This document shows positions 19,964 through 55,696 of a stretch of 64,000 nucleotides of DNA, in pieces (positions within the stretch are counted from its first letter, which is position 1; each line of letters begins with the position of its first letter). The position numbers and the translations under genes are program-made. The notes beneath the pieces were generated by a model. The model had not been told where the DNA came from, did no database searches, and saw only the letters and a list, made by a program, of their open reading frames with translations. Source of the DNA: Haloarcula laminariae (GTDB lineage: Archaea; Halobacteriota; Halobacteria; Halobacteriales; Haloarculaceae); contig NZ_JAMZFY010000004.1 of the NCBI RefSeq assembly GCF_025457605.1, forward strand, positions 1-64,000. Reading direction: 5' to 3'.

Positions 19964-21172
19964 TCAGGTGTCGAGAGTGAGCACGATATCCGCATCCCAC
20001 AAAAGTGTGTACTGGCTATAGTGTCCCTTCCCTTCTCCGGTCCCTCGACGACTCCCTGCGACTTCCAAGAAGCACAGCTCGTTGAGTAATTGCCGAGTTC
20101 GCTCGGATGAAAGAGGATCAGCCCCACTCTGGTTGCACACCTCAAGATACGTCTCACGTACTTGCACCGTCCGGAACCATTCTCGCTCGGGGTGGTTCTT
20201 GGTGAGGTTCGCCAGCGCGACTAACACATGTTTGCTGTGGGGTGGGAGTCCCGATATGAGTTCAAGCAGTCGGTCAACTTCTGCTGAAGCCCGTGCATCG
20301 TTGAGGTGGGACTCTTTCACCCGATCAGCGTTCTCCTTGTTCGCTTGATCCCCAGCATACCGAAGAAGGCGCATAGCCTTTCGTGCATCTCCGTGTTCCT
20401 TCGCACTCAGTGCCGCAGCACGGGGAATTACGCCGTCATCAAGAACGCCATCAGCGAATGCATCAGTCCGATTTTCGAGAATCTCTCGAATCTGATCCGC
20501 GTCGTAGGGTTCGAAGATGAACTCGTTATGCCCGAACGAACTCTTTGTCCGTTCGCTCATCTTGTCCCGGTAGTTGATTTTGTTCGACACCGCGATTACC
20601 CCAATCGGAACATCAACACTCCCATCTTCTCCCGCTCGAGAAAGCGCCATTAGCAGATCGTCGTTATTGAGCTTGTCAACTTCATCCAGTACGATGATTG
20701 CAGCATCATAAAACTCGTTCAGGACCGACCAGACCCGCTCAAAATACTCATTTTCGGAGATTCCCCGCGCCGGGAACTTCGTCCCACTTTCTGGTGGATT
20801 AATTTCGCGACCGTACTTGCTTAGAGCGTCGGAGTTTCCCTTTGCCTGCTGGCAGTTGACGTATCCAGTAGCAAGTCTCACACCTCGGTTTTCAGCCTCT
20901 TCCTTAGCAATCTTAGAGACGTGCTTTGCGACAAGGGATTTTCCACATCCCGTTTTGCCGTAGATAATGATAGAGTTTGGCGGCTCACCGACAACAATGG
21001 GCCCGATTTCTCCAGCAACCTTCTCAATTTGCTCGTCACGACCAACGATTCGTTTCTCACTCGGAACATAGTCGATTTGAAGGATTTCTCGTTGCTCAAA
21101 GATCCCTCCACCTTTCTTAGTAACAGTATCAAAGACGCTATGAACAGTCTCTGATCCATCTTCACTATCCAT
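19964..21172 (-). CDS. orc1: Orc1/Cdc6 replication initiator
   Basis: Orc1/Cdc6 proteins bind origin repeats and load the MCM helicase. The 402-residue protein has the AAA+ core: Walker A GKTGCGKS (72-79), Walker B IIVLDEVD (159-166), sensor 1 in IGVIAVSNK and sensor 2 in HGDARKAMRLLRYAG. A C-terminal winged helix follows (EREWFRTVQVRETYLEVCNQ). It is divergent from chromosomal Orc1 proteins and has its own set of repeats directly upstream (21262-21556), so it probably replicates a plasmid-like element. The ATG at 21172 is the first in the frame; a TATA-like AAATAAAC lies about 25 bp upstream. Confidence 0.93.
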   Translation of the reverse strand: MDSEDGSETVHSVFDTVTKKGGGIFEQREILQIDYVPSEKRIVGRDEQIEKVAGEIGPIVVGEPPNSIIIYGKTGCGKSLVAKHVSKIAKEEAENRGVRLATGYVNCQQAKGNSDALSKYGREINPPESGTKFPARGISENEYFERVWSVLNEFYDAAIIVLDEVDKLNNDDLLMALSRAGEDGSVDVPIGVIAVSNKINYRDKMSERTKSSFGHNEFIFEPYDADQIREILENRTDAFADGVLDDGVIPRAAALSAKEHGDARKAMRLLRYAGDQANKENADRVKESHLNDARASAEVDRLLELISGLPPHSKHVLVALANLTKNHPEREWFRTVQVRETYLEVCNQSGADPLSSERTRQLLNELCFLEVAGSRRGTGEGKGHYSQYTLLWDADIVLTLDT

Positions 21173-33469: not shown

Positions 33470-36082
33470 TTACATGAATTCGTGGGCGTTGTGATCGTCG
33501 TCCTCATCAGTCTCACTTGTCTCTGTAATATCGTCGTCTTGAGTTGCGGCATCGTCGACAGCTTTTGAGTCACCGTTAATCGTGGACTCAGCTTGACTGA
33601 CAGTGTCATCAGAGAGTTGCTCATCCAGATCGCCAAGAGTGGATTGCTGGTCATCAGACTGAGTGTCCGGGGCAGTGTCCGATGGAGCAGCATCATCTGC
33701 TCTAGGTTCTGCCCCCGATGCGGGGGTTACTGAGTTTGACTCACCATTTGATTCCTCAGCATGCATCGACTCGGATAGTGACGTAGCGTTTGTCCTACCG
33801 GTATCTTGAGCGAAGGGATTTTCGGCAGTGTTCCCTGCCGATGCGGAAAATTCTGACCCGCCTTGAGTGAATGACTCTTCGAATCGCTCGTTGACTCGCA
33901 GTATTTCAGTTCGATCAGTCACAATATCTAGGGTTTGTGTTTCCGAGAGACCGGTCTGGGCCACGATATCGGCGAAGAGCTCTCGTATTTCAGTGGTAGC
34001 TACGGATTCTGGAAGCGTTAAGACTCGGTCGTCAAGCATTGTTGCGATGTCGCGGATAGCGTCGACGTTCTGTTTTTCCGTAATCGGTGGTTCCTGAACG
34101 TCAAGCCGATCAAGCGTCTGTTCCCAGCCACCCTGGGTAAACGTACGATACGGGGTAGCGTCAGTCTCTTTTGCCCAGACTGCTGGGCTGCTATCTGATT
34201 CATCCCCCGTAGTGATCATTTCGCCGTCGATGTCGCCAGAGTCATCGGTGTTATCAGCGTCGTCGGTGTCGCCAGTTAGATCGGCGGCCTTCGACCGAGC
34301 TAGCGCCATCCAGCTGTCGTGGTTCTCCAGATCTTCATCATCCTCGTCTTCGGTACGTGGTGTAGCCGGTGATTCGGCCCCCATCTCGGGGAGATCATCG
34401 CGAACTTCGTGGAGTTCATACGATTGTCCGTGCCACCACGTCGTTCGAGAGACAACGATGCACTCCCCAGGTTCAAAGTCGCGTAGGAGACCAGACGTGA
34501 TCGGTGTTTTGTCCTTCTCCTTGTACGTATCCCGGGACTGGGAGCGAGCCGACTCGTTGCGCCCCTGGTGACTCATCGCGACCATTTCAGTGCGGTCCAG
34601 CTGCCGCCGTTCGCCAAGCTCGTCAAGGACGAACTCGGTCGACTCTGCGTCACCGGGGCCGAAGTAGACGCCCTGTGGACAGTTGCCTACGATGCCAGAG
34701 ATAGTACTGTAGGTATCTTCGAGTTGACCGATTGTCTGAACACCGATCAGCGCACGGGCCTTGTTTTTCCGCCCACGGGCCGTCAGGTTCGTTACCTGTG
34801 TAAGCGACGGCAGCGCATCGATCTCGTCGAGGATGTGGACCGTTGGGTTCGGCGAATTCATCGCGTACCGAATCGACCAGTCAAGCAGCAATTGATACAT
34901 CGGCCCGAGCGTTTCCATTCGCGATGGGTCGGAGTCGATAATCAGCACTCGCCCATCCGGGTTTTTGATGTACTCTTCCAGGGAGAACCGGCCGTAGTCG
35001 GCGAAGTCGTCGACGAAGACTGGGCGAACGTTCTCCCGCAGTGTCTGGTAGACGTTCTGCGCTCCTTTCCCCTTGTCCGGGTCGATATGGCCGGAATCGA
35101 GTCGGTCGTACTCATCGAGTGCCTCTTTGAGTGCGTAGTGGCCCTGATCGAGCAGCGAGACGATATCTGTGTGACAGAGGTCCTGCCGGCGGTTGTTTCG
35201 CTGGGCCTCCAGATGGAGGTACAGCAGCATATCCTGGAATGTCTGCTTCGCTGGCCGATGGAACGGATTGTGGCCGTCAGGTTCCCCGAAGATAGCGCCA
35301 GCCACTTCCCGGAATTCCGATTCACTGTCAGCATCTTGGAACAGATTCCAGACGACATCGCTGTCGGTCGCACTGATACGCTTGACGTCGAACCCGAGGT
35401 CCGTGTAGAATTGCTGGAACTCTTCGCCAGTGTCGTGAGCGATGACCGCAGTATCGCGGTCATAGGGGAACTGGTAGGCTAGTAGCCGCATCATCGATGT
35501 TTTCCCACTTCCAGTCTCACCGATGACAGCCGTCGAGATATCCTGATCGAGGGTCGGCGGCGTGTCGGCATCGTCGTCCTTGTTCGCGACCTCTTCGAGC
35601 GGGACGACTGATTCACCGTCCTCGGAGTCCCAGGGGTTACGAGCAAACATCGCCGGCGATGTCCGGCGGAGTGCATCGCCAGAGAGCGTAAGGACAATCC
35701 CTGTACCGTAGAGTACAACGGTGGTCTGATAGCTCACCAACGGGAGCGAGAGGCCAGGTATCGGATAGCCAGCGAAGAGCCCAGCGAGCGACAACGCAGC
35801 GACGACATGGGCAAACGGGAACAAGAACAACCAGTCGAAGTCGCCGGCGAGTAGTTCAGGGGCGAAGAAAATCGCGCTGACGAGGAAGAAGCCGCTGTAA
35901 ATGTAGCGCCAGGCCCAGAACCGTTTGTGCAGCGGCTTGTCGCTATCGACCCACATAGGTGGGAACAGCAGCATTACCGCGGCCCACAGAAAGGAGGTGA
36001 CATCGTCATACTTGAGACTCTGGGGCACCTCTGCGGACTGTTGTCCGGGCGGAGTGTGTGAGGAATCAGAACTCGAGCTCAT
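33470..36082 (-). CDS. virD4: VirD4/TraG-type coupling protein
   Basis: The coupling protein is a hexameric membrane ATPase that links the relaxase-DNA complex to the secretion channel. The 870-residue protein has N-terminal membrane helices (about residues 58-135), Walker A GETGSGKT (188-195), RVLIIDSDPSRMETLGPMYQ and Walker B VHILDEIDAL followed by SLTQVTNLTARGRKNKARAL, which is the VirD4 pattern. The last 280 residues are acidic and disordered. It is the last gene of the conjugation operon, 6 bp after the relaxase. A complete ATPase core argues for function. Confidence 0.9.
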   Translation of the reverse strand: MSSSSDSSHTPPGQQSAEVPQSLKYDDVTSFLWAAVMLLFPPMWVDSDKPLHKRFWAWRYIYSGFFLVSAIFFAPELLAGDFDWLFLFPFAHVVAALSLAGLFAGYPIPGLSLPLVSYQTTVVLYGTGIVLTLSGDALRRTSPAMFARNPWDSEDGESVVPLEEVANKDDDADTPPTLDQDISTAVIGETGSGKTSMMRLLAYQFPYDRDTAVIAHDTGEEFQQFYTDLGFDVKRISATDSDVVWNLFQDADSESEFREVAGAIFGEPDGHNPFHRPAKQTFQDMLLYLHLEAQRNNRRQDLCHTDIVSLLDQGHYALKEALDEYDRLDSGHIDPDKGKGAQNVYQTLRENVRPVFVDDFADYGRFSLEEYIKNPDGRVLIIDSDPSRMETLGPMYQLLLDWSIRYAMNSPNPTVHILDEIDALPSLTQVTNLTARGRKNKARALIGVQTIGQLEDTYSTISGIVGNCPQGVYFGPGDAESTEFVLDELGERRQLDRTEMVAMSHQGRNESARSQSRDTYKEKDKTPITSGLLRDFEPGECIVVSRTTWWHGQSYELHEVRDDLPEMGAESPATPRTEDEDDEDLENHDSWMALARSKAADLTGDTDDADNTDDSGDIDGEMITTGDESDSSPAVWAKETDATPYRTFTQGGWEQTLDRLDVQEPPITEKQNVDAIRDIATMLDDRVLTLPESVATTEIRELFADIVAQTGLSETQTLDIVTDRTEILRVNERFEESFTQGGSEFSASAGNTAENPFAQDTGRTNATSLSESMHAEESNGESNSVTPASGAEPRADDAAPSDTAPDTQSDDQQSTLGDLDEQLSDDTVSQAESTINGDSKAVDDAATQDDDITETSETDEDDDHNAHEFM

Positions 36083-36088
36083 GATGTC

Positions 36089-36880
36089 TCACCCACCCAT
36101 CGTCCGGTCCATGTCCCGCTCTGGTTCCGGTTCTGGTTCTCGTTCTGGCTCTGGCTCAGGTTGTAGTTCCCGGCTGGGTTCCTCTGGAGTTGTTGTGTCA
36201 GCTTCCCGGCTAAGCACTGATTCCGACTGTCGCTCCTGAGCGCGGGATTTGTCGCGTTTGTTCTCAGATGAGGGTGTGGAAGGCGATGTCTCCTGGGACC
36301 GCGCTCTGTCCTGTAGAACGTCTTTTTCGGGGTGCTCTTCCAGCGACAGCTCGCGCTCATGCAATTCTTCCCGAGCCTCGTCGGATACCGTCTGTGACGG
36401 TGTTTGGGCAGCTGTGTCCGTGCTTGCTTGCGTGGCGCCTCTAGCACGCTCCGCTTCACTATAGACGGTTGCAGCGCGCTCCCGGAGGCGCTCGATTTCA
36501 GCACGGTCCATCTCCAGTTCCGACTCTCGACCCGTAGCAGCGACGTGTGCGTGTGGGAACTCGGTGTCACGGTGGACTGCGTAAACGTACTGGGTAGTCG
36601 CTCGTTGGCCAAACGCTCGATTCATTACCTCCCGAGTATTGGCGCTCACCTCTTCGGGGGTGTACTGTCCCTGGGGATCCGGCGAGACGATTAGATGACG
36701 CTGGAACTGGAATTCACGACTCTTCTCGACGAATCTATTGACTTCGGCTTCGGAGAGCTCTCGGCCTGCCGAGTTTTGGACATCGACAGTACTCTCTGCA
36801 TCTCGCGAGCGATCTCGCTGGATGTAGTCGACGAGATTCCCAGCACTGCCCTCTCGAAAGTCAGTTTTGAGGATCATCAC
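36089..36880 (-). CDS. HUH relaxase (VirD2/MobA-like)
   Basis: A relaxase nicks the transfer origin and stays bound to the transferred strand. In this 263-residue protein Tyr19 (GNLVDYIQRD) is the candidate nucleophile. RHLIVSPDPQGQYTPEEVSA is the typical central strand-helix. The three-histidine metal motif VHRDTEFPHAHVAATG has His103, His110 and His112 and is nearly identical in spacing to VirD2 and MOBP/MOBV relaxases. The C-terminal 120 residues are a charged, Pro-Glu-rich tail with EPEPER repeats. The gene overlaps the upstream ribbon-helix-helix-type gene by 4 bp and precedes the coupling protein by 6 bp. The protein is shorter than most bacterial relaxases, but the catalytic core is complete. 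Confidence 0.85.
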   Translation of the reverse strand: MMILKTDFREGSAGNLVDYIQRDRSRDAESTVDVQNSAGRELSEAEVNRFVEKSREFQFQRHLIVSPDPQGQYTPEEVSANTREVMNRAFGQRATTQYVYAVHRDTEFPHAHVAATGRESELEMDRAEIERLRERAATVYSEAERARGATQASTDTAAQTPSQTVSDEAREELHERELSLEEHPEKDVLQDRARSQETSPSTPSSENKRDKSRAQERQSESVLSREADTTTPEEPSRELQPEPEPEREPEPEPERDMDRTMGG

Positions 36881-38343: not shown

Positions 38344-38468
38344 CGTTCACCACACTCCTGGGCAGTCCCAGTCTGTCCACGAAACACCTTGGCGTCGATC
38401 CCTACAGGGGGTGCTACAGGTGTATCAGCCGGCTCTCCGGGCTGAACCGTCGGCTCTCGCTCACTCAT
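38340..38468 (-). CDS. 42-residue peptide in the conjugation operon
   Basis: The frame MSEREPTVQPGEPADTPVAP (first 20 residues) ends with ...CGER. Its ATG overlaps the virB4 stop, and its stop overlaps the next start by 4 bp. This double overlap with both neighbours is strong evidence that it is translated. It is Pro-rich and unrecognised; it could be a small accessory or linker peptide, or serve just for translational coupling. Confidence 0.6.
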   Translation of the reverse strand: MSEREPTVQPGEPADTPVAPPVGIDAKVFRGQTGTAQECGER

Positions 38469-41400
38469 TGTCATCACCGCTGGCAGTCGTCTTGTCTTCC
38501 GTACTCCAAATCCCGTTGCCCTCTGGATCGAACGTCACCGTTCGCTTGTCATCACCCGGGACACCGGGCTCAGACTGTCTCTCCGATGGCTGTAGATTGG
38601 ACCCTGTCGTCCCGGACGTCTCTGACTCTGTCACTTCCAGCATGCCGTCCGTCGAGGACGAAGTTCGTTCCTGTGAGACTGAGGTGCGTTCGTCGGTGCC
38701 AGCTAACGCACCGCCGTCGGCAACCGCTTTCGAGGGCATCTGTCGGTCGAGGGCCACGGAGACTATCTCCACCAGTTCGTCTTCACTCAGTTCGTTCAGC
38801 AGCTTTTCAGCCCGTTCCGGTGTGAGTCCATGAACCTGCGTCAGTTCATGTTCCATCGCCTCAGTGTACACGAACTGTTCGAACTGCTGGACCTTCGGCG
38901 ATACCTGATCTGCGAGTTCGTCGAGGACATCTCGACCGTGAGCATCGAGATCGATGACACGCTTTTCCTCCCACGACGTCCGGATAGTCAGCGGGTAGTC
39001 GCCGTGCTCGTCGACCCGAACGAGAGCTTGAGAATACCCCTGACCGTCGCCGATGGACTCTTTGCCAGCCTCGGCTGTCTGGATGTAGTACTGCTGTTCG
39101 CTGGTCAGGCCGGCCTTCTTGGCGGTGTGGTCGCCCAGGTCCGGCTCGCGATGGTGGACCATGATCGGACACATCCCCGCTATCTCTTCGGCGACACCGT
39201 TGTCGTAGAACTCCTGGAGCGTCTGGGAGAGCATCACCAGCCGTAGCCCGGCGTGTCGCTGGTGGCGAGCAATTTGGTTGAGGAACGCCAGATTGGCGTC
39301 ATCGTTGAATAGGTAGTGGGCCTCGTCGATGATGATCTCCACTTTCGAATCCATGTTCTTGGCCTGCTGGTACAGTGTCGACAGCAGCAGCTGCATGATG
39401 AACGACTGTTTGCCCAGACCATCGCCAGTGCCTTCGACCTGCTGGAGGTCGAGATAGACTGCCTTGCTCGAATCGTCGATGAGCTTCATGTCCGACGCCT
39501 GCGAGAGATTCCCGTACGTACTGCCCTCACGGAACGGATGCAGCGCGACCGAGAGCTCATCGGCATATTCCCGGATTTTCTGACGCGAGGAGTCCGTGGT
39601 CGCGCCGGGGAACATTCCGGGGCTGTCCTGCAGTCGGTCCAGCAGGTCCAGGAAGTCCTGCATGTTGGGCGAGTTCTCGGGTGTGTGCGTCGACGGATCA
39701 TCGGGCTCGATATCGGATTCTGCGAAGATCGTATCGATGATGAACGTGATCAGCCCACTGTGCATTTCCAGCTGGACGTCACGGGCTTCGAGGAAGTTCT
39801 CGATGACCCCGTAGACTTCGTCTTTCTTCGCTGCGACAGGCTGCATGTCCGGCGATTGCTCTAGGATATGCTCCGGCGTCGGGTGCATCTCGCAGGGATT
39901 GAGCGGCGTCTCACCGCTGACGGTAATCGTCTTCGCGTCCAGCATTTTCGCGCTGCCGCGCATATCTCCGACCGGGTCGATGTAGACCTGCTTGACGTCG
40001 GGCCGTTTCTTCATCATCCGCATCGCCCGTGCTTGCGTGCCGTGCGTTTTCCCGCCCCCAGGCATCCCCGTCACGAGCTCAGAGTGGCCGGTTTCGAGGT
40101 CCCATGGGTCGATCAGCAACGAGGAGTTGTTGTGCCCATGGGTTCCGTACTCGATACCGTTCTCCATGCGGAGGTAGTTCGACGAGAACGGGAACAACGA
40201 CCCCAGTGCCTCGCTGGTCATCGACGAGAGACGATCTTTCCCGAGCTCGTTCGCCCCGATTGGCGAGACAGTCACCAGACCGTCCTCTTGTCGGCGGGTG
40301 GCCCGCTTGATGCTACAGTTCGCGGGCGAGTCCCGGAGCACGCTTTCGAGCTGGTTCGTCCGTCGACGGAGTTCCTCTTCGCTCTCGGCAGTGATACGGA
40401 CAAACACGCCAGCGCGGAATAGCGACGTGTGATTACGCCGGACCATCTGCCGGATGAACTTGGCCTGGTTCACATCTTGTTGGATGTCTTCCGCTTGAAT
40501 CTGGCCCTGGTCATCCTGAACGACCTGCAGGGAGGAGATCCATTTCTCCATGACCGTCAGTGCCTCCTGCGTGTCGTACGGGTCGATGTGAATGGACACG
40601 TCGGCACGAAGGTCCGTATCCAGCAGCAGGCGTTCGAGCAGCCCGTTTGACGGTTCTTCGGGGAAGGTTTCGACCCAGAACGTTCGGGCGTAGGTCTCTT
40701 GGTCGATGAATGCATGATCCTCGGCCCAGTCGATGGCCGTGGGTGCGACCAGCGACTGGTGTTCGTGGCCAGGATTCGATACACCGTGGGGAACCTCCAC
40801 AGCTTCATCGATACCTCTCGTCTCGCTATCAGTCCCTTCGGCAGTTGCATGGTTCTCGAGCATCTCGCTGGCGCGAGCGAGCTCTCTATCGGAGTACGTA
40901 ATCGGCGAGATATCGGCTGCCTGCTCGATATCACCGAACTGCCGTGGCTCACAGGCCCAGTAGTCCTTGGTAAGCTGGGCGAGCTTGTACGACGATACGG
41001 GCTCGCTTCGACACCGATAGAGACTGTCGACCGAGCGAGCGACTCTGGAGAGTCGGTCGTGGAGTTTCTTGGCCTTGTGTTCCTCTCGCTCCCCGGCAGT
41101 CAGTCCGTTGCTCCCGACACTGGAGACCAACTCACCCACCACCGGAAGGTCTTCAAGGTAGTTCGCAACAGACGCGTCATCACTGACGAGGTCCTCAATC
41201 TCGGCATCGGTGACTGTGACGATGATGTAGTATTCGCGTTGCATCTCGGTCTCGGCGACGATTTCGCCATCATCGTCGGTATGTCGGTTGAGCCACTCCA
41301 TGAGGACCCCCCGGAAGATGGAGTGGTTCTGTGTATCGGCATCCTCGAGCCGCTCTTTGTGGGCCTTGATATGCTCCGTGTTGTCAGCATCTCGCGTCGT

Positions 41401-41922
41401 GACGTAGATCTTGGCGGTACCTTCCAATGAGTTAACCATCTCAGTCAGGGACTGGACAGCGTTCTGCCACTGCTCACCGTCTTCGAGGGCCATGTTGGCT
41501 GGCTGGACCTCGACGGCCCCGACGTAGGCGCCGTCGACCCGCTCGATTCCGTGGGGCATGATGCGTTTCAGCCGGGTAGCATTCCGAGTGTCCTGGGCCC
41601 CATCGTCGACGGTGTGTTCCTCTTCTTTGACCCGCCAGAACGCCCGGACACGAAGCCACTCAGTCAGCCGGTAGTAGTTCGGCCGGACTGCTCGCAGCGT
41701 GAAGAGGCCGACCTCAGCCAGAACCAATCCGAGCAGCGCCGGGAGGGTCACACTGGCTGGGACGAACGGCATTCCCAAGACGAGTACAAACAGGAAGACG
41801 GGAGCAGCGAACAGGAGCAGTTCACCGAGGGTATATCCGCCCCAGAACTCGGTCGTATCCCCGAGTGAGCCGTGGATGATGTTCGTACTGTACTGCTGTG
41901 TGCTCTGTTGTGCTTGTGCCAT
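38461..41922 (-). CDS. virB4: VirB4-like conjugation ATPase with N-terminal membrane part
   Basis: VirB4 powers assembly of the conjugative channel and pilus. The 1153-residue protein has two membrane helices near residues 33-77 (LLLFAAPVFLFVLVLGMPFV and beyond), a possible fused VirB3-like part, then the VirB4 N-terminal region and an ATPase core: Walker A GMPGGGKT (619-626), Walker B VEIIIDEAHY (861-870) and the later LVMLSQT. The C-terminal 100 residues are disordered. The ATG at 41922 was chosen: it is 7 bp after the VirB6-like stop and upstream residues are not protein-like. Confidence 0.92.
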   Translation of the reverse strand: MAQAQQSTQQYSTNIIHGSLGDTTEFWGGYTLGELLLFAAPVFLFVLVLGMPFVPASVTLPALLGLVLAEVGLFTLRAVRPNYYRLTEWLRVRAFWRVKEEEHTVDDGAQDTRNATRLKRIMPHGIERVDGAYVGAVEVQPANMALEDGEQWQNAVQSLTEMVNSLEGTAKIYVTTRDADNTEHIKAHKERLEDADTQNHSIFRGVLMEWLNRHTDDDGEIVAETEMQREYYIIVTVTDAEIEDLVSDDASVANYLEDLPVVGELVSSVGSNGLTAGEREEHKAKKLHDRLSRVARSVDSLYRCRSEPVSSYKLAQLTKDYWACEPRQFGDIEQAADISPITYSDRELARASEMLENHATAEGTDSETRGIDEAVEVPHGVSNPGHEHQSLVAPTAIDWAEDHAFIDQETYARTFWVETFPEEPSNGLLERLLLDTDLRADVSIHIDPYDTQEALTVMEKWISSLQVVQDDQGQIQAEDIQQDVNQAKFIRQMVRRNHTSLFRAGVFVRITAESEEELRRRTNQLESVLRDSPANCSIKRATRRQEDGLVTVSPIGANELGKDRLSSMTSEALGSLFPFSSNYLRMENGIEYGTHGHNNSSLLIDPWDLETGHSELVTGMPGGGKTHGTQARAMRMMKKRPDVKQVYIDPVGDMRGSAKMLDAKTITVSGETPLNPCEMHPTPEHILEQSPDMQPVAAKKDEVYGVIENFLEARDVQLEMHSGLITFIIDTIFAESDIEPDDPSTHTPENSPNMQDFLDLLDRLQDSPGMFPGATTDSSRQKIREYADELSVALHPFREGSTYGNLSQASDMKLIDDSSKAVYLDLQQVEGTGDGLGKQSFIMQLLLSTLYQQAKNMDSKVEIIIDEAHYLFNDDANLAFLNQIARHQRHAGLRLVMLSQTLQEFYDNGVAEEIAGMCPIMVHHREPDLGDHTAKKAGLTSEQQYYIQTAEAGKESIGDGQGYSQALVRVDEHGDYPLTIRTSWEEKRVIDLDAHGRDVLDELADQVSPKVQQFEQFVYTEAMEHELTQVHGLTPERAEKLLNELSEDELVEIVSVALDRQMPSKAVADGGALAGTDERTSVSQERTSSSTDGMLEVTESETSGTTGSNLQPSERQSEPGVPGDDKRTVTFDPEGNGIWSTEDKTTASGDDNE

Positions 41923-41929
41923 AGTTTGA

Positions 41930-43744
41930 TTAGGTGTTCGGGGAGTCGTCTCGCGGTCGATACGCATCGGGACCGAGCACGTCGTCATCGGTCGCGAACA
42001 AGTCTTTGGCGTTGGCAGCCCCACCCGTTGCAGGCGAGTCACCATCGTCGCCAGCATCGGTGGTCGGAGCGGCCCCAGCTGCGGGATCGTCATCGTCAGC
42101 ACTGTCTACTTGACCAGCAGCACTGTCGACGTCCGAGGGGACCTGCGCTGCATCATCAGGGGGCGAACCGTCCTCAACAGTGGTTCCCTCATCGAGCAGG
42201 TCCCAGTAGCGGACAGTGTCGCCAAGGTCAGGAGCGTCTGATTCCGCTGCCGAACCCCGCCCTGTGTCAGGCAGACGGCCTTGAGCGGGAGGGCCGGCAG
42301 GTTCAGGCGGCCGGGAGCCGCTGGGGTCTGATGTCGGATTTGGAGCGGTCCGAATTGCGTTCTCAGGGCCTGGGTCAGATGGGTCTGGACCTGCTGTTGG
42401 GCCAGGGTCGGAGGCTCCAGAACCGTTCGAGCCACCGAAGTTCGCGTTCGACAGGCCTCGATGGAGATTCATAGCGCCATAGGCCGCCCGACCAATACGA
42501 CCCTTCGCAGCGTTCCCCAGCGCGCTGAAACCGCCAGCCGCGCTCAGTGCTCCCCCAGACCCTGCGACTGCGCCGGCACCGGCGGTCGCAGCACCGGCGC
42601 CAATTGCTGCCGAGGCCTTGGCAGGTTTCTTCACCGACTGTTTCGCTCCGCCGAGGGTCTGCTCGCTCACCCGCACCGCAGTCCGACTGCTCCGAACAAT
42701 CATCTCTTTTTGAGCCTTCGCTGCCAGGAAGATCGTGGCGATAGAGGCCAGTGCGGTGAGCCCCTCAGGCAGACCCCATGCGTCTGTTTCAAAGCTTATC
42801 CTGAAGAGGACAGCTGCTGGGATGCCACCCGCCAAAGCCCCAGGGTATGCGCCAGCAATTTGCTTAGCGAGTCCAGCGAACCGATTGAACGGCCATACTT
42901 CTAGCGGCCAGAAGGCCGCCACAAGCGGCATACACAGCGTTAGCAATATAATCAGTATCCAGCGGACAATCGCGATAAATATCGCTTTCAGGTATACATA
43001 AAGGCCAACGAGAACAAGGATCGCAAGCAGTCCCGGGTTTTTCACCGAAATCTCTGTAATCGAATACAAGGTGTTTACAACCTTGTCAATATCGTACCCA
43101 GAGAAAACGATTTGTCGGGCAAGAATATCGAAGAATTGCGTCGCGAGAGACGCAGCAGGTAGCCAGAGGAAAATCGCGAAGAACACCATCACGACTCGCC
43201 GGCCGACCTGTTTGCGGACCACTGGATCCATCGACTTGTATCGCAGGCCGACAGCAGCTAGTGTGATGAACTGGAGACCGAGAGCTAAACCGACAATTCC
43301 CTCAAAATAGACATTCGAAATAAGTCCACTCCAGGGATCATTAGTGGCGCCTGTGAACGCTATCTCAAGCGGTCCTGCAACAGTGTCACCCTTAGGTGAT
43401 GGAGTCTCCACTAAAGGCGTGATGAGGGCTCTGAAGAAAGATCTGAATGCGTTCTGTACCCCAGTTGCGAGCCCCTCAAGGAACGCATCAATGCCAGCTT
43501 CTATGGGATTTTCGAGTACGCTCTCGGTGAATACCTGTGTTTTGAGGTCCTCGACTAACTTGGTGAGGAATTTCGGGATGAAATCATCGATGAAATCCTG
43601 AACCGATGGCACATCGACGTTAACATCGACATCTCCGACGCCCCCTCCATCGCCACCGTCACCATTACCATCGCCACTGTCACCTCCTCCACCATCACCG
43701 CAACCAGGAAAAGGATCAGGACAAGGGACTTGCCTCTGGCTCAT
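41930..43744 (-). CDS. virB6: VirB6/TrbL-like polytopic channel protein
   Basis: A 604-residue membrane protein with a Gly/Asp-rich N terminus, several hydrophobic segments in its middle (from VYFEGIVGLALGLQFITLAA through LTALASIATIFLAA), and an Ala/Gly-rich then acidic disordered C-terminal half. This build and the place directly before virB4 match VirB6/TrbL proteins, which form the inner-membrane channel of type IV secretion. The sequence itself is divergent. The start overlaps the preceding lipoprotein stop by 4 bp. Confidence 0.75.
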   Translation of the reverse strand: MSQRQVPCPDPFPGCGDGGGGDSGDGNGDGGDGGGVGDVDVNVDVPSVQDFIDDFIPKFLTKLVEDLKTQVFTESVLENPIEAGIDAFLEGLATGVQNAFRSFFRALITPLVETPSPKGDTVAGPLEIAFTGATNDPWSGLISNVYFEGIVGLALGLQFITLAAVGLRYKSMDPVVRKQVGRRVVMVFFAIFLWLPAASLATQFFDILARQIVFSGYDIDKVVNTLYSITEISVKNPGLLAILVLVGLYVYLKAIFIAIVRWILIILLTLCMPLVAAFWPLEVWPFNRFAGLAKQIAGAYPGALAGGIPAAVLFRISFETDAWGLPEGLTALASIATIFLAAKAQKEMIVRSSRTAVRVSEQTLGGAKQSVKKPAKASAAIGAGAATAGAGAVAGSGGALSAAGGFSALGNAAKGRIGRAAYGAMNLHRGLSNANFGGSNGSGASDPGPTAGPDPSDPGPENAIRTAPNPTSDPSGSRPPEPAGPPAQGRLPDTGRGSAAESDAPDLGDTVRYWDLLDEGTTVEDGSPPDDAAQVPSDVDSAAGQVDSADDDDPAAGAAPTTDAGDDGDSPATGGAANAKDLFATDDDVLGPDAYRPRDDSPNT

Positions 43745-46364: not shown

Positions 46365-46829
46365 TCAGGCGAGGGGGTTCACACAGTCGCTGAACGTGAA
46401 ATTCGCTTGATTGGCGAATTTGCTGATGAGTTCAGGGGAGACAATTGCCAGCAGAATCACCCCAAACCCAGTCATCGACAGGATGAGGTCCTTTCGGGCC
46501 TCATTTTGCTGGTTGGGGTTGCCCGACGCTCGCATATACGAGAGCCCAGAGCGACCGACGTAGAACATCGTCGTTGGGAGTCCGAGTCCAACCAACGCTC
46601 CAAACGTGACATCAAGGAGCCCTTCGACACTGGTGCCACAGTAGGTGTCTCCGAACGTCGTCTGGGCCATTGCGGTCCCGCTAAACAGGAGCAGGACTAG
46701 CGAAAACTGGGCGGCTCGTCTAAATGTGGTGTTCGTGGTAGCCTGTGCGGCCCGAAGTTTGGCATGTGCAGCGAGTGATCGGAGTGATATTGAGTGCGAT
46801 GCGTCCGTACTGCGAGGGCTGTTGCTCAT
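46365..46829 (-). CDS. VirB2-like pilin candidate
   Basis: A 154-residue protein with a long basic N-terminal extension, a signal-peptide-like segment ending at about residue 56 (AQFSLVLLLFSGTAMA followed by QTT), and then two hydrophobic helices (LLDVTFGALVGLGLPTTMFY and LILSMTGFGVILLAIVSPEL). After cleavage a two-helix protein of about 98 residues with two Cys remains, the design of VirB2/TrbC pilins. Being first in the operon also fits. No sequence-level match can be shown here. Confidence 0.6.
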   Translation of the reverse strand: MSNSPRSTDASHSISLRSLAAHAKLRAAQATTNTTFRRAAQFSLVLLLFSGTAMAQTTFGDTYCGTSVEGLLDVTFGALVGLGLPTTMFYVGRSGLSYMRASGNPNQQNEARKDLILSMTGFGVILLAIVSPELISKFANQANFTFSDCVNPLA

Positions 46830-47214: not shown

Positions 47215-48483
47215 TCAGTCCAATCCGGTATCGAACGCAGTGGCGAGTTTCTCTCGCATGAACTCCCGTCGGAGTTCACGACGACGATCTTCTGAGAGGT
47301 AATCTTCCCAGACGACACTTGCTGAGGCACTCCCCTGTTCCTCAGCGACTTCTTGGATCTGGTGCTCAACCAGCTCTTCAACCGTCGAAGAGTACCGGTC
47401 GTACCAGAACCGCCGTGCCATCTGTGGAACCGGGCTACGACCATCAATCGTTTCTGGGAGCGCAGCTCGTTCGGCGAGCTCGTCGAACCAGTTGCGTATG
47501 GTTCCGCCGGTGCGGTGACCGCTGGACGAGCGTGGCGACGGAAACAAGTACCCGCTCCAGTCTTCGTCGTCAGAAAACTGTGCGATTCGAGATTCGACGA
47601 TGTCTTGGCCGTATATGAGTGCAACCGACCCCGGGCCGTTCTTCCGACTCTCGAATTCAATGCGGGAGGCATCATCGTCCAGCACGAGCTGGTCGGCATG
47701 GAGGGCCGCAACCTCACCAGAGCGGAGTCCCCACCCACAGAGCGCAACGACGAGTAGCTTCTCGCGAGTGTCTTCGGCGGCTTCGAACAGAGCTGCGACG
47801 TGGTCGGGCCCTAGGGGCGGATTCGACGTCGTCCCGGCGTCGTCGCCACTCCAGTTGTAGTCGAGTCCATCGGTGGGATTCAGCGCCGCCTCGCGACGGC
47901 TGACCAGTGTTGTGTACCAGTCCGAGACAGTGATGTAGATGCGCCGCAACGTCTCTCGGGCAACCTCTTGGTCCAGCTCGTCGAAAGTAGCCCAGCAGGC
48001 GTCGACAGCTTCGTGAGCGGGTACTGTTGACTCTCTGGCGACCGGCGAGAGGAGGTCATCTGTGTCGTTCACCCGAGCATAGGCCCGCACGTAACGGCCG
48101 AGTCGGCTTCGGTGGGCGTCGACGGTCGACTCGCTCCAGGACTTGCGCTGTCGCTGGCGGTCGAGGTAACGTTCCAGTGCTTCGACAGTGTCGGCGTGGT
48201 CGATCTCCCAGTCGTACCCCTGGGATTCGAGTTCGAGTTCCTGCTCGCAGAATTCCGTGACGGTAGTATCGTGGTGTTCTTGCAGTGTGTAAATAAAGCG
48301 CCGGAAGCCATTTTTGTTGAGCCATTCGTAGGTCGGCTGCTCGGTCTTGGGGTTGAGTCCGTCGGCCCGCATGGCGGGGGCGACGACGTCCCAGTAGGCG
48401 TCGACGAGGCCGTCGCGGCCCAGCAGTGTCCAGGAGGGCTCGTCCTGGGCGGTGCCTGAATCTGAATCGGCCGATTTTGGCAT
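47215..48483 (-). CDS. Tyrosine recombinase/integrase
   Basis: A 422-residue phage-integrase-type recombinase. The N-terminal core-binding domain covers about residues 85-185 (TVDAHRSRLGRYVRAYARVN). The catalytic domain has Arg in LCGWGLRSGEVAALHADQL and PQMARRFWYDRYSSTVEELV as the later Arg box. The candidate nucleophile Tyr is in ASVVWEDYLSEDRRRE. The His of the H-x-x-R box appears replaced (QMARRFW), as in some haloarchaeal members. A single gene; the ATG at 48483. It probably integrates the conjugative element. Confidence 0.82.
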   Translation of the reverse strand: MPKSADSDSGTAQDEPSWTLLGRDGLVDAYWDVVAPAMRADGLNPKTEQPTYEWLNKNGFRRFIYTLQEHHDTTVTEFCEQELELESQGYDWEIDHADTVEALERYLDRQRQRKSWSESTVDAHRSRLGRYVRAYARVNDTDDLLSPVARESTVPAHEAVDACWATFDELDQEVARETLRRIYITVSDWYTTLVSRREAALNPTDGLDYNWSGDDAGTTSNPPLGPDHVAALFEAAEDTREKLLVVALCGWGLRSGEVAALHADQLVLDDDASRIEFESRKNGPGSVALIYGQDIVESRIAQFSDDEDWSGYLFPSPRSSSGHRTGGTIRNWFDELAERAALPETIDGRSPVPQMARRFWYDRYSSTVEELVEHQIQEVAEEQGSASASVVWEDYLSEDRRRELRREFMREKLATAFDTGLD

Positions 48484-48922
48484 ACTGAGCGGTACAGTAT
48501 TTTATCTTATATTTTTGTCGACCTTTGTGACCGCGACAGTCACCATAGCCAACAGCAGGAAATGCGCGGAGTGCATAATAATCAATAAACCATATACTGC
48601 TATACAGAATGCGTGCCCAGACCATCAGATATTCTGCGTTTGATTCCTACAAACCACCAATTGAACATTAATTCATATAAGCTGATCAGTAGACGTGCGT
48701 ACTGACAGGAGCCACCAATTGGAGTAATGGAAAAGTAGTTGGTTTCATAAGTGAATCGGTCCGGATACAGCAAGAGAAACACATCTATTAGCCATCATTC
48801 GGATCAATCTACTTGCTGTCTGACTATAACCAACTATGTTCCCATATTATACCGGATACTACGGTCCACAGAATCATTCCACTAACCCTATCAACTAACT
48901 GGATGGAATTTGACTAACTGCT
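48484..48922. other. Gene-free region between integrase and HMG-CoA reductase
   Basis: AT-rich and without convincing coding frames. TATTATAC at 48846-48853 may be the TATA box of the downstream gene, giving a leader of about 50 nt. Two tiny frames (20 and 4 codons) precede the ATG at 48923, but one overlaps that TATA box. No tRNA gene, the usual integrase target, is seen. Confidence 0.4.
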
Positions 48923-50191
48923 ATGGACTCACGTATTCCTGACTTCTACGAAGAAACTCCGGAGCGACGACGTGAAATCATTACGAGTCGCTGCCTCCTT
49001 TCTGAAGAAGATTCTGACGCTCTGAGGGAGGGGCCCAATAGCGAACTCATGGATAGTTTGAGTGAAAACGTGATCGGCAGTATTTCCCTCCCGTTGAGTG
49101 TTGCGACAAACTTCGTTATCGATGGCGAAGACGTACTTGTGCCAATGGCGGTTGAAGAAAGCTCCGTTGTGGCAGCCGCTTCGTATGGGGCGAAACTTAC
49201 GCGTGAGACGGGCGGATTCTCAACCTCTGTCTCGGGACCGTATATGCTCGGACAGATCCAAATTCGAGACATCAGTGACCCATACAGTGCGAAAATGCGG
49301 GTTCTCGAACGAGCTGACGAGATTAGATCTATGGCTAATGATCAGGGTGTCCTCGTCTCTCACGGTGGCGGGTGTGAGAACGTTACTGCTCGTGTCGTAG
49401 ACACCCCTCGTGGCCCAATGGTTGTCGTTCATCTCCTTGTAAATGTGCAGGACGCCATGGGAGCGAATGCAGTCAACACAATGGCAGAGGCAGTGGCCCC
49501 GCTCGTTGAAGAAGAGACCAGTGGGGAAGCCGTTCTCCGTGTGTTGTCAAACTTAGCGGATCACCGAGTTGCGCGTGCTCGGTGTACTGTCACACCAGAT
49601 ATGCTTGAGCGCGAGCAGAGTTCGCTGGCTGGAGAAGAGGTAAGGGACCGAATCGTTGATGCGTGGGCCTTCGCCGCCGGTGATCCGTACCGGGCAGCAA
49701 CGCACAACAAGGGCATCCTGAACGGGATGGATGCGCTTGCAGTTGCAACAATGAATGACTGGCGAGCAATTGAGGCCGGCGCTCACGCCTTTGCAGCCAA
49801 TGATGGATACGGCCCGCTTTCGACCTACGAAATTGATACAGAGGGAAATCTGTCGTGCAGTATTGAGGTACCAGTCCAAGTGGGCACTGTTGGCGGCGCT
49901 ACTCGTGCCCATCCAACTGCTAGTGCAGCGATGGAGATCCTTGACGTTGAATCGAGTGACGAGCTAGTGGGAATCTTCGGAGCCGTGGGGCTCGCAGAAA
50001 ACATCGCCAGTATGCGTGCACTGGCTGATGAAGGAATCCAAACTGGACACATGAAACTTCATGCGAAGAATATTGCCCGTGAGACTGACGCACCCGATGA
50101 ACTAATTGAGGAAATTGCGGCGCGGATGGTTGCCGAAGATGATATTCGGGCTGGACGAGCCCGTGAATTGGCCGAAGAACTGAGCCAGTGA
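48923..50191 (+). CDS. Class II HMG-CoA reductase
   Basis: The enzyme interconverts HMG-CoA and mevalonate, normally for isoprenoid lipids in archaea. This 422-residue protein is of class II, not the class I form expected for haloarchaeal housekeeping: ENVIGSISLPLSVATNFVID, PMAVEESSVVAAAS with the catalytic Glu, DAMGANAVNTM with Asp, THNKGILNGMDA with Lys and the late GHMKLHAKN with His. All catalytic residues are present. Codon use is less GC-rich than the neighbours, suggesting transfer from a bacterium or other archaeon. It stands alone behind the integrase, as cargo. A spare, differently inhibited reductase could give statin-type resistance or raise flux; that is inference. Confidence 0.92.
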   Translation: MDSRIPDFYEETPERRREIITSRCLLSEEDSDALREGPNSELMDSLSENVIGSISLPLSVATNFVIDGEDVLVPMAVEESSVVAAASYGAKLTRETGGFSTSVSGPYMLGQIQIRDISDPYSAKMRVLERADEIRSMANDQGVLVSHGGGCENVTARVVDTPRGPMVVVHLLVNVQDAMGANAVNTMAEAVAPLVEEETSGEAVLRVLSNLADHRVARARCTVTPDMLEREQSSLAGEEVRDRIVDAWAFAAGDPYRAATHNKGILNGMDALAVATMNDWRAIEAGAHAFAANDGYGPLSTYEIDTEGNLSCSIEVPVQVGTVGGATRAHPTASAAMEILDVESSDELVGIFGAVGLAENIASMRALADEGIQTGHMKLHAKNIARETDAPDELIEEIAARMVAEDDIRAGRARELAEELSQ

Positions 50192-50736
50192 GACCGGCCG
50201 TAATCCCTTGGTAACTACGCAGTTCTACTAATTGGCTGTTTCATTTGAATTTCGTCGAAGAAATCGGTACAACAGAGCCACCAAAACAGCAATCTGTGTT
50301 GGCTGTAGATTGTATCCGTATTTGGTTTCATGGGGGTCCACGGGTCTCGGTTAGGAAGTCCTGGTACTGAACGGAGATTGGGTACACGTAGTTGGGGGTG
50401 GTTTGAAGAATCTGGGATAGCGTAGGGGGGCTTCGCTCTCACTGAGTCACACTCGTTTTTTCTCCGGTTATCCACATGACGGCCGCAATTCATTCGGCGT
50501 AGGCAAAGTTGAGAACCGGTTATCAGGAGGCTCGCTGCCTTTTGATCAAATTTTTGTCGCACGACGGCGAGCATCCGCGTGGCGTGTCCCGCGCTCTCCG
50601 GATAGTGGTCGACCGCGATGGGTATACCCCGACTGGTACCCGCGTAGCCGTAGCTTCCGAGTCAAGGGCAGGAGAGTGCGACACGGCAACACACGGACAT
50701 CACACTGTTTATGGCCGCACGCGAAAACGACTGGAT
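50192..50736. other. Gene-free region, possible insertion-sequence remnant
   Basis: No intact gene. The minus strand between 50560 and 50215 has degenerate frames with protein-like pieces that could be the tail of an old transposase, but no motif allows a name. A TATA-like CTGTTTATGG (50704-50713) lies about 25 bp upstream of the dehydratase ATG. Confidence 0.3.
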
Positions 50737-52506
50737 ATGAATGGCAAACCAGAGTCGAACACGGACGAGACGGATATCGAATCTACGGAGGGATCGACGC
50801 CCGAGAAGGACCCTGACCTGAGGAGCACCGAAGTGACCAAGGGCCCCGAGAGTGCTCCGCACCGCGCGATGTTCCGCGCGATGGGTTACGATGATGCGGA
50901 CCTCTCCTCACCGATGGTCGGCGTCGCCAACCCAGCTGCGGACGTCACGCCCTGCAACGTCCACCTCGACGATGTCGCGAACACTGCAATCGCTGGCATC
51001 GAGGACACCGGCGGGATGCCCATCGAGTTCGGTACCGTCACTGTCAGCGACGCTATTTCCATGGGGACAGAGGGAATGAAGGCCTCGCTGATCTCCCGGG
51101 AGTTGATTGCCGACTCCGTCGAGCTCGTCTCGTTCGCCGAGCGGATGGACGCCCTCGTCACCGTCGCCGGGTGCGACAAGAACCTCCCCGGCATGATGAT
51201 GGCCGCCATCCGCACCGATCTCCCCAGCGTCTTCCTCTACGGTGGGTCCATCCTCCCCGGCCACCACGACGGCCGCGATATTACGGTCCAGAGCGTCTTC
51301 GAGGGCGTCGGTACCTACGCTGCCGGCAACATGACCGAGGAAGAGCTCTACGAGATGGAGCACGAGGCCTGTCCAGGAGCAGGCTCTTGCGGCGGGATGT
51401 TCACCGCGAACACGATGGCCTCGATCAGCGAGATACTCGGTCTCGCTCCCCTCGGGTCGGCGTCGCCGCCCGCCGAGGATGAAGAGCGCTACAAGGTTGC
51501 TCGCGAGGCTGGAGAGGTCGTTCTCGACGCCGTCGAGAATGACCGCCGGCCGAGCGATATCCTCACAAAAGAGTCCTTCGAGAACGCTATCACTCTCCAG
51601 ACGGCGCTCGGCGGCTCCACGAACGGCGTCCTGCATATCCTCGCGCTCGCTGCCGAGGCTGGCATCGACCTTACGATCGACGAGTTCGACGAGATCAGCA
51701 AGCGTACGCCGAAGATCGCGAACCTCCAACCAGGCGGCACGCGCGTCATGAAGGACCTCCACGATGTCGGCGGTGTCCCCGTCGTCATTCGCCGCCTCTT
51801 GGAGGGCGGGTACCTCCACGGCGACGCGATGACCGTCACCGGGAACACAATCGCCGAGGAGGTGGAAACGCTCGACTTACCGGACGACGAGGACATCGAT
51901 GCAGACTTCCTCGCGACGACCGAGGACCCGTTTCACGAGGAGGGTGCAATCAAAATTCTAACTGGGAACCTCGCGCCGGATGGTGCCGTCCTCAAGGAAA
52001 CGGGTGAGGAAGGCTTCTATCACAACGGCCCCGCGCGCGTGTTCGAGAACGAGGAGGACGCGATGGCCTACGTGCAGGAAGGCCATATTGAGTCTGGCGA
52101 CGTCATCGTCGTCCGGAACGAGGGCCCACAGGGCGGCCCCGGGATGCGCGAGATGCTCGGTGTCACCGCCGCCGTCGTCGGCCAAGGCCATGAGGACGAC
52201 GTCGCCCTCCTCACCGACGGGCGCTTCAGTGGTGCGACCCGTGGCCCGATGGTCGGCCACGTCGCCCCTGAGTCTGTGGTCGGCGGACCGATTGCCGCCC
52301 TCGAAGACGGTGATACAGTTACTGTTGACATCCGCAAGCGCGAACTCTCTGTCGACCTCAGCGACGAAGAACTCGAAGCCCGCCTCGACGAATACGAGCG
52401 TCCCGAGATCCAGTATGAGGGAGGTTTCCTCCGTAAGTATGGCGACGCCTTCGACTCCGCTGCGAACGGCGCGGTGACGAATCCCGCTGTCAAGCGCGAC
52501 AACTGA
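50737..52506 (+). CDS. ilvD: Dihydroxy-acid dehydratase
   Basis: IlvD dehydrates dihydroxy-acids in valine, isoleucine and leucine synthesis using an Fe-S cluster. The 589 residues contain the cluster ligands in [21 protein letters not shown] and [17 protein letters not shown], and the C-terminal [19 protein letters not shown]. The ATG at 50737 was chosen because the haloarchaeal-type N terminus begins there and a TATA box lies 25 bp upstream; a longer frame from 50509 has no such support. It stands apart from other ilv/leu genes, so it may be a second copy. A clear terminator follows at 52557. Confidence 0.95.
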
Positions 52507-52882: not shown

Positions 52883-53431
52883 TCAGTCGCTGTTCTCTCC
52901 TGTCCCATCAGCGTCCTCAACTTCTTCAACTGGCTTGAGGTTCGCTTCCATACGATCGTATTTGGCTTCACGAAGTTCCTCTTCTGTCGGCGTCTTCGAC
53001 ACCAAAGACGCACCTTCAGGGAGGTCAAAGTCCTGATCCTGTATTGGTTCCGAATCGGCTACCATTTTGAGGAGTTCCTGATCCCGGTTGATCTTCCCGA
53101 CCATCTGCTCAAACGCCGTATCCCGTTCGTGTCGAAGCCGCCGGAGTTCTCGGATCTTCCGCTCGAACTCCGTCTGCACTGCCCAATCATACACGCGCCG
53201 CCCAAGTATGGTGAGTTCATACCGCTTCTCTGTCCCGTGCTCGGTCGGCCTATGACTCACCGTGAACACGTCGTGATCAACGCCTTCTGAGAGTCGCGAG
53301 GAGACCGTCGATCCACTTACCGCAACTGCGTCGACGAGCGCGTTGAACGTCGCTGTTCCCGTCCCGATCTCCGTAACGAGTTCCGCCGCGCCCTTCTTCC
53401 GAAGAAACGCCTCGAGTTCGTCCAAGCCCAT
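52883..53431 (-). CDS. Winged-helix transcriptional regulator with coiled tail
   Basis: The 182-residue protein has an N-terminal winged helix: LDELEAFLRKKGAAELVTEI, GTGTATFNALVDAVAVSGST (recognition helix with VSSRLSEG) and the wing with RPTEHGTEKRYELTILGRRV. A charged helical or coiled-coil segment follows (ERKIRELRRLRHERDTAFEQ), then an acidic tail. The winged helix looks HxlR- or MarR-like. The ATG at 53431 with GGGAG upstream is preferred to a GTG at 53452. The gene is divergent from the transposase; its targets are unknown. Confidence 0.75.
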   Translation of the reverse strand: MGLDELEAFLRKKGAAELVTEIGTGTATFNALVDAVAVSGSTVSSRLSEGVDHDVFTVSHRPTEHGTEKRYELTILGRRVYDWAVQTEFERKIRELRRLRHERDTAFEQMVGKINRDQELLKMVADSEPIQDQDFDLPEGASLVSKTPTEEELREAKYDRMEANLKPVEEVEDADGTGENSD

Positions 53432-53727
53432 CGTACTCCCGATTCTCCCCACATCACTATAAGCCCAACTGAAATTTGATTCAAACTGATTCTTGACCTA
53501 TATCGAATTATGGCTACAACTGATTCTCTAAGTACAGCGCGTATACCCCTTGATATGTCTCTATCTACAAGCTTAGAACAGATAATCGACGACAATGATC
53601 AACTATATTTTTACTATACTCTATACAGTTCTTCGCTCCTACTCAGTAGATATTTCTATACAGAATCATTCCAGTATTGGGCCGACCACAACTCAGAAGC
53701 GGAGTGGTTCGCCCTGGAGGTGGCTCA

Positions 53728-55458
53728 ATGCCGACTGACCCGTCGGCTGTCGCTGATTCAATCATTGTCCACGCAGAGGCGATCTGTGAGCAGGAGAACC
53801 ACCTCTGGGATGTCATTCGTCAGCTATCGATTCCCGTCGACAACCTCGGGGATGCCCGCGATCAGAACCGTGTTGACTTTGGGACTGACGAAATGTTTCG
53901 CACACTCTTGTTCAAAGGGATTCGAGGCATCTCACAGAACGAATTAGCGCAACGACTTGGCCGGGAGCCGAGCTTAGTCAAGAGCTTCCACCTTGATATC
54001 ACCGATCTCTCGAATACGCCGACCCAGCAACAGCTCTCGTACACGCATGCGCAGTTTAGTGAGGATACCCAAGAAGTGCTCAATCGGACGGTTGCTGGCG
54101 TCCGACAAGTTGCTCTCGACAACGACGTCCTCACGGAAGGGCTCGTCCCATCAGTCCCAGCCGAAACCAAGGAAGAATCACAAAGCACGAATGAGTACAA
54201 GAAGGAGAAGGCCCAGAAGACGCTGACGCTCGCTCGAAAACATGTTATCCCCGAATTCGACACGCACCGAGCAGCCCACAAAACGTACTCCGACGAGGTA
54301 ATGCTAGATATGTTCGCGAGCATCTGCGCGAACAACGGTAGTGCTCATTCAGAAGCCGAGTACGGCTGGCTCACCGACGACGAACTCATCTGCGACGACT
54401 CGACCTTCCTACGGGCAATCAAGAAGATAGCCATGCCCAAAGACTCGGACGACCAGCTCACGTTCGAGGACTTCGAGGACGATAACTCGATGCCCGAGAT
54501 CGACCAGATTCGGGACGCTATTATGACGGCGTTCAACGCCGCGACGAAAAACATCATCAACTCGATCCGTGGTGACGATCCCTTCGACTCTCGTCAGACC
54601 GTTGCGGCGATCGACATCACCCACGAGCAGTTCCACGTCTGGCCGTGGGAGGACAAAGAAGCAGGCATCGCGAAGCCAGACTACCCGAAGATGGTGAGCG
54701 GGTACAAGAAAGACGGCGAGTACAAGCGCGGGTACAAGTACGCCACTATCACGCTGGTTGGCGACCACGCACCGATCGTTCTCGGTATTGAGCCAGTGAA
54801 AGAGAATTCCACGTGGGAGCCCGACGATTCTCCATCGTACTCGAAAGCCGATTTAGTGAGTCGATTACTTGACCGCGCTGAGCAGTTCGTCGATCTGGAT
54901 CTGGTGATGTTCGATCGCGGATTCTACGTCAACCGAGTGTACGCAGACGTTCACGATCGCGGGCTCACGTATCTCTCACCGGTTCCGACGTACGAGGATG
55001 ACTTGGCGGCAATTCAGGATATTCAGGAGCATCCGACGGCGGACGAAGCTGTCAAGCACGAGGTTCCATTCGGAATCGATGGCGAGGTACATCACGAGGC
55101 TGAGTTCCTCTATGCTCCCAGTACGAGCGATGATGCTGACGGAAAGTACGCGGTGTTCGTAACGAACCAGGACTGCGTCGAGCCCGAAGAAATCTCGAGT
55201 GTCGTGAACGGGTACAGTCGTCGGTGGGACATTGAGAACCAGTACAAGTCGATCAAGGATTTCATGCCGAAGACATCGTCGACGGATTACCGGCTTCGGC
55301 TGTGTAACTTCGCGCTGTCGACGCTGATCTACAATCTGTGGCGGCTGACGGATTATCTAATCAAGGTCGCGCTCGACGAGCCGATCCGGTCGCCGCCAGT
55401 GATCACAGCAAAGACGTTCGTGCGGGCGTTAGGCGACTTCTTGCGTGAGTTCGGGTAA
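53728..55458 (+). CDS. DDE transposase (IS4-superfamily-like)
   Basis: A 576-residue transposase. The catalytic triad is visible: Asp in VAAIDITHEQFHVW, Asp in LDLVMFDRGFYVNRVYADV and Glu in SRRWDIENQYKSIKDFMPK, where the Y-x(2)-R-x(3)-E-type arrangement is like the IS4/ISH families of haloarchaea. The start at ATG 53728 has a perfect ribosome-binding site, GGAGGTG, five bases upstream. It is apparently full-length. I could not find terminal inverted repeats by eye, so the limits of the insertion sequence are not given. Confidence 0.85.
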   Translation: MPTDPSAVADSIIVHAEAICEQENHLWDVIRQLSIPVDNLGDARDQNRVDFGTDEMFRTLLFKGIRGISQNELAQRLGREPSLVKSFHLDITDLSNTPTQQQLSYTHAQFSEDTQEVLNRTVAGVRQVALDNDVLTEGLVPSVPAETKEESQSTNEYKKEKAQKTLTLARKHVIPEFDTHRAAHKTYSDEVMLDMFASICANNGSAHSEAEYGWLTDDELICDDSTFLRAIKKIAMPKDSDDQLTFEDFEDDNSMPEIDQIRDAIMTAFNAATKNIINSIRGDDPFDSRQTVAAIDITHEQFHVWPWEDKEAGIAKPDYPKMVSGYKKDGEYKRGYKYATITLVGDHAPIVLGIEPVKENSTWEPDDSPSYSKADLVSRLLDRAEQFVDLDLVMFDRGFYVNRVYADVHDRGLTYLSPVPTYEDDLAAIQDIQEHPTADEAVKHEVPFGIDGEVHHEAEFLYAPSTSDDADGKYAVFVTNQDCVEPEEISSVVNGYSRRWDIENQYKSIKDFMPKTSSTDYRLRLCNFALSTLIYNLWRLTDYLIKVALDEPIRSPPVITAKTFVRALGDFLREFG

Positions 55459-55696
55459 CGCTTTTCTCACTCTGGGTTCACTGATTCGGTAGCGGTTGCG
55501 CTGTCGGTTTTTGCGGATTTCGAACTAACTATCATATCTATGAATGGTCCGTGGTTGCTAATTCGGTCTCGTCCGATTTTCGCACCGGATTTACAGTCAC
55601 TAACTCGTGAATTTCCGAGTTTCATTTGTAGGTTTATAAGCACGCGGAGAATGTGATACCCCCCGAAGTGCCTGTCATTCAGAGGGCGGGACTAGC

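Follow-up and report, generated by a model that had tools for sequence, protein, structure and literature searches.

HMG-CoA reductase (HMGR) carries out a key step in the synthesis of archaeal lipids, and a second, structurally different HMGR gene lies on a plasmid of Haloarcula laminariae. We examined a 64,000-nt stretch of this plasmid (the window), in which an open reading frame (ORF) at 48923-50191 (+ strand) is predicted to encode a protein of 422 amino acids. Class membership was defined as a score above the cut-off for the class II family model and far below it for the class I model. The ORF scored 410.6 bits with TIGR00532 (HMG_CoA_R_NAD, degradative/class II), above the cut-off of 259.95, and 63 bits with the class I model TIGR00533, far under its cut-off of 441.8. 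In an alignment to the Pseudomonas mevalonii enzyme (1QAX), residues E83, R261, K267, N271, D283, and H381 correspond to E79, R257, K263, N267, D279, and H376 of the plasmid protein. All of the catalytic and substrate residues examined were present, including the catalytic glutamate, lysine, aspartate, and histidine (E79, K263, D279, and H376). With these results, we conclude that the ORF encodes a predicted intact class II HMGR, as a first-pass annotation of this DNA had claimed for both the enzyme class and the active site. We found no paper describing a haloarchaeal class II HMGR in the literature searched.

The contig that contains the window repeats its first 17,050 bases at its end with zero mismatches, and is therefore a circle of 84,886 bp. 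The window is thus part of a complete plasmid, whose matches are mostly to Haloarcula. The minus strand encodes an Orc1/Cdc6 plasmid replication initiator (19964-21172), a TrwB/TraG-like type IV secretion coupling protein (33470-36082), a MobA/VirD2-like relaxase (36089-36877), a large ATPase of the transfer region (38461-42093) whose neighbouring plasmid matches are annotated "conjugal transfer protein", and a weak T4SS pilin-like protein (46365-46829; 21.6 bits to Pfam T4SS_pilin, under the cut-off of 26.6). Having found a circular replicon, a replication initiator, a relaxase, and a coupling protein, the features by which we recognized such plasmids, we classify the molecule as conjugative-type, with transfer ability predicted from its genes. 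The plasmid also carries genes for a heme-copper oxidase subunit I (2796-4634), SelO (1358-2752), and a CetZ-family tubulin-like protein (6021-7127).

The HMGR gene lies between a tyrosine-recombinase-like ORF (47215-48483, - strand), which scored 27.8 bits to archaeal XerA against a cut-off of 220 and had no Pfam match, and a second ilvD gene (50737-52506, + strand). The latter codes for a dihydroxy-acid dehydratase (DHAD) that is 73% identical to the chromosomal copy. This ilvD is divergent (no copy in the genus exceeds 78% identity to it), and it is also cargo. Beyond it is an IS4/ISH3-like mobile element (52887-55655, + strand; transposase at 53677-55458) that is common to other haloarchaeal plasmids and contains a wHTH-like ORF on the minus strand. 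We noticed a near-identical 17-nt sequence just upstream of the HMGR gene (48868-48884) and in the mobile element near the transposase start (53660-53676). Two matches occurred in 2 of 100 shuffles, and the repeat is probably due to chance.

The plasmid enzyme has its nearest relative in Halocatena salina, where a class II HMGR is likewise encoded on a plasmid (NZ_CP096021.1). The two proteins are 98% identical, whereas the class I proteins of the two hosts are only 74% identical, and we therefore conclude that the class II gene moved horizontally, recently and between genera. The DNA common to both plasmids (48855-50221, + strand; 96% nucleotide identity) covers the gene and extends about 68 bp upstream of it and 30 bp downstream; outside this segment, the flanks are unrelated to the Halocatena plasmid within about 20 kb. 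The two genes differ at 46 nucleotides, 36 of them at third positions. With a dN of 0.010 and a dS of 0.128 (dN/dS about 0.08), purifying selection has maintained the protein. GC content at third positions is 0.50 in the class II gene versus 0.92 in the class I gene of this genome, and the value of 0.50 falls inside the range of other plasmid genes.

The first-pass annotation had proposed horizontal gain as cargo, with the neighbouring recombinase as the vehicle. The first part is supported in the form of plasmid cargo; the second is not. The integrase ORF was absent near all other class II loci searched, the 64,000-nt window contained no tRNA gene, no convincing att repeats were found for the recombinase ORF, and both the integrase and ilvD fall outside the segment common to the Halocatena plasmid. 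We therefore reject the integrase as the mover. Carriage by viruses was likewise rejected, as a search of viral contigs with this HMGR as the query gave no relative.

The phylogenetic check proposed with that annotation was run on 102 sequences with a quick method and no bootstrap, and the class II gene of one genome (G406) was not placed. All haloarchaeal class II proteins in the tree, including that of a Halodesulfurarchaeum MAG, formed one clade (SH-aLRT 100) that a long stem separates from Pseudomonadota, Chloroflexota, and other archaea. We therefore reject a recent gain directly from bacteria. The window copy belongs to branch A (SH-aLRT 100, 10 sequences), together with proteins from Halocatena, Natronosalvus, Halomontanus, Halorussus litoreus, a Halobacteriales MAG, and four members of a single genus; in three of these four, the class II gene adjoins EF-1A and rpsJ. 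Branch B (SH-aLRT 89) includes genes whose operon also encodes AtuA, an AtuA ferredoxin-like protein, and a sodium:solute symporter.

The two branches differ at the cofactor site. The published cofactor-helix motifs are Dx(V/L)xxxL for NADH and (H/Y)xSxxxR for NADPH (PMC13370337). The aspartate equivalent to P. mevalonii Asp146, which is part of the NADH motif and sets NADH use, was kept in all 16 branch B sequences examined and lost in all 10 of branch A, which read ANDQG-VLVSHGGGC (ADDQG in one) with one residue fewer, although shifting the alignment gap could retain an aspartate. The branch A helix matches neither motif, and the cofactor preference of the plasmid HMGR is therefore not predictable. 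This is a subtype feature that class membership does not need: other class II HMGRs also fall outside both motifs (preprint PMC13370337), and the mismatch thus does not exclude class II membership. Cofactor use in the Ruegeria HMGR shifts when the aspartate at the position that determines the cofactor is changed (PMC12292504). The loss specific to branch A offers a natural experiment on the choice between NADH and NADPH.

Does the host depend on this gene? Searches of the genome contigs, on which all genome-wide statements here rest, located a class I HMGR, also intact, on a different contig (C2:776571-777689), a 403-amino-acid ORF with 433 bits to PF00368 and the expected motifs. The class I enzyme that the first-pass annotation had wanted looked for elsewhere in the genome is thus present, and the outcome that it named as refuting its claim, a genome without class I, did not occur. 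Class II genes are uncommon, exceeding the cut-off in 18 of 391 genomes in an even sample of the class, and a strong match was found in 9 of 146 genomes of the same GTDB family, the source genome included. The same annotation had stated that haloarchaea rely on class I. This is correct for most, but not for three genomes in which the only HMGR is class II: G146 and G151, which adjoin Halodesulfurarchaeum in the tree, and Halorussus litoreus HD8-51 (G275). At the class I locus of H. litoreus (G275:C25:29000-36500), icd, a TPR gene, a cupin gene, and the next gene are in order and hmgA is missing; no hmgA remnant was detected there, the contig is ungapped, and a congener holds hmgA at this position. 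The class II enzyme of H. litoreus is in branch A, as is the window copy. Given the three genomes with class II as the sole HMGR and the clean loss of hmgA in H. litoreus, class II evidently can carry the biosynthetic load.

Several other explanations for the plasmid gene have to be weighed against a biosynthetic role. One, raised by the first-pass annotation, is degradation: the host would import mevalonate and catabolise it by oxidation to HMG-CoA, like P. mevalonii. The family model is indeed named degradative, and related branch B genes sit in the operon described above. In this genome, however, the best match to HMG-CoA lyase reached 73.8 bits, far below the cut-off of 246 and short of what a P. 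mevalonii-type pathway calls for, AtuA was absent genome-wide, and neither a transporter nor any other catabolic operon partner adjoins the plasmid gene, whose neighbours are the recombinase-like ORF and ilvD. There are, moreover, relatives whose sole HMGR is class II. Because the lyase and AtuA searches were negative, we reject a degradative pathway here, and consider a degradative enzyme very unlikely. Across the class II carriers, HMG-CoA lyase was under the cut-off in 20 of 23 (above it in G066, G444, and G186), and AtuA was present in 8 of 23, all in branch B. The branch B operon, consisting of class II HMGR, AtuA, the AtuA ferredoxin-like protein, a small unknown protein, and the sodium:solute symporter, was seen at L038:12001-16902, at L039:12001-16953, and in about 8 more genomes. 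Genomes with this operon mostly have no HMG-CoA lyase, and the operon may encode an undescribed route for the use of HMG-CoA or a related acid. The gene could also be a neutral passenger, recently moved, without effect on the host, and due to decay. Its patchy distribution and the unrelated flanks in Halocatena would fit such a history, but the low dN/dS accumulated after divergence from the Halocatena copy, the intact active site, and the conserved upstream sequence make it highly improbable.

Another possibility is that the gene was selected as inhibitor-resistance cargo, since statin-like fungal metabolites would inhibit class I HMGR and affect class II only weakly. Haloarchaeal HMGR is inhibited by mevinolin, and markers for resistance are available (PMC12186497); statin inhibition of bacterial class II enzymes is about 10,000-fold weaker (PMC10070635, PMC13370337); fungal statin clusters protect their host with a resistant HMGR copy (PMC9500038); and saltern sediment at 20% salinity has yielded an isolate of Aspergillus terreus, a species that produces lovastatin (PMC3164379). 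From the biochemistry of the family, statin tolerance of the plasmid HMGR is plausible. The gene also lies on a plasmid beside a second ilvD, and aspterric acid, another A. terreus product, inhibits IlvD/DHAD (PMC11528067). We therefore considered the idea of twin targets, with lovastatin acting on HMGR and aspterric acid on IlvD. The plasmid IlvD, however, has the residues of ordinary genus members at the sites examined in plant DHAD and AstD, with no AstD-like resistance residues beyond these, and a search for ilvD near other class II HMGR genes did not find it, leaving the two unlinked in other carriers. We rejected the idea, which lends weak circumstantial support at most. In addition, no source that we read shows statins in these habitats, and one carrier branch holds the gene at a stable chromosomal locus, the one beside EF-1A and rpsJ. 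On balance, selection as resistance cargo seems unlikely to us. A broader version, which we regard as quite unlikely, is that plasmid class II HMGRs are natural, transferable target-bypass resistance to statin-type inhibitors of the essential lipid pathway, such that class I is made dispensable, as in H. litoreus, and the mobile gene turns essential. Natural statin tolerance, which archaea may possess, can be put to a direct test with the plasmid HMGR, and the gene suggests an inhibitor-tolerant marker for haloarchaeal genetics.

Since neither an HMG-CoA lyase above the family cut-off nor AtuA was found here and class I has been replaced in a relative, we read the plasmid gene as a second biosynthetic HMGR. 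It would work from HMG-CoA to mevalonate, alongside the class I enzyme of the chromosome. Class II has a different cofactor site and binds inhibitors such as statins differently, and the host would thereby usually gain a source of mevalonate that does not depend on class I. The lineage to which the gene belongs can replace class I outright. Some observations caution against this biosynthetic reading. The HMGR reaction is reversible, and some branch B carriers have the gene in an apparent catabolic or uptake operon. The close carrier G186 (Natronosalvus) has HMG-CoA lyase, and a recent arrival that is retained just temporarily would look similar. We infer the expression of the plasmid gene, the direction of its reaction in this cell, and its selective benefit. 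Taken together, we consider it probable, with moderate confidence, that the gene is a functional, mobile biosynthetic HMGR isozyme, carried on a conjugative-type plasmid and derived from a lineage able to replace class I. A mobile, structurally different HMGR that can replace the resident enzyme shows a natural swap of a core pathway step.

The plasmid HMGR is a further member of a known enzyme family with small lineage-specific variation, and its novelty is modest; its interest is that it is mobile and that its own branch replaced the housekeeping enzyme in a relative. It shares its Pfam family and reaction with the chromosomal class I HMGR (hmgA), the housekeeping enzyme of most haloarchaea, but identity between the classes is about 30%. 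The Halocatena copy has the same short flanks in addition to its near-identical protein, yet it occupies a different context, with neither ilvD nor an adjacent integrase among the annotated neighbours. The enzymes of the AtuA-operon branch (Salinigranum and Halalkalicoccus plasmids) are 60-64% identical to the plasmid HMGR and belong to the same haloarchaeal clade, and differ in keeping the cofactor aspartate and in being encoded with AtuA and the symporter. The class II HMGRs of P. mevalonii (1QAX) and Burkholderia cenocepacia (6DIO) align over the full length with 425-435 bits and have the same size and catalytic residues, whereas the plasmid gene has no lyase partner gene. Relative to the cofactor helix of the P. 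mevalonii enzyme, the plasmid HMGR has glycine in place of Asp146, a one-residue deletion, and histidine in place of Leu152.
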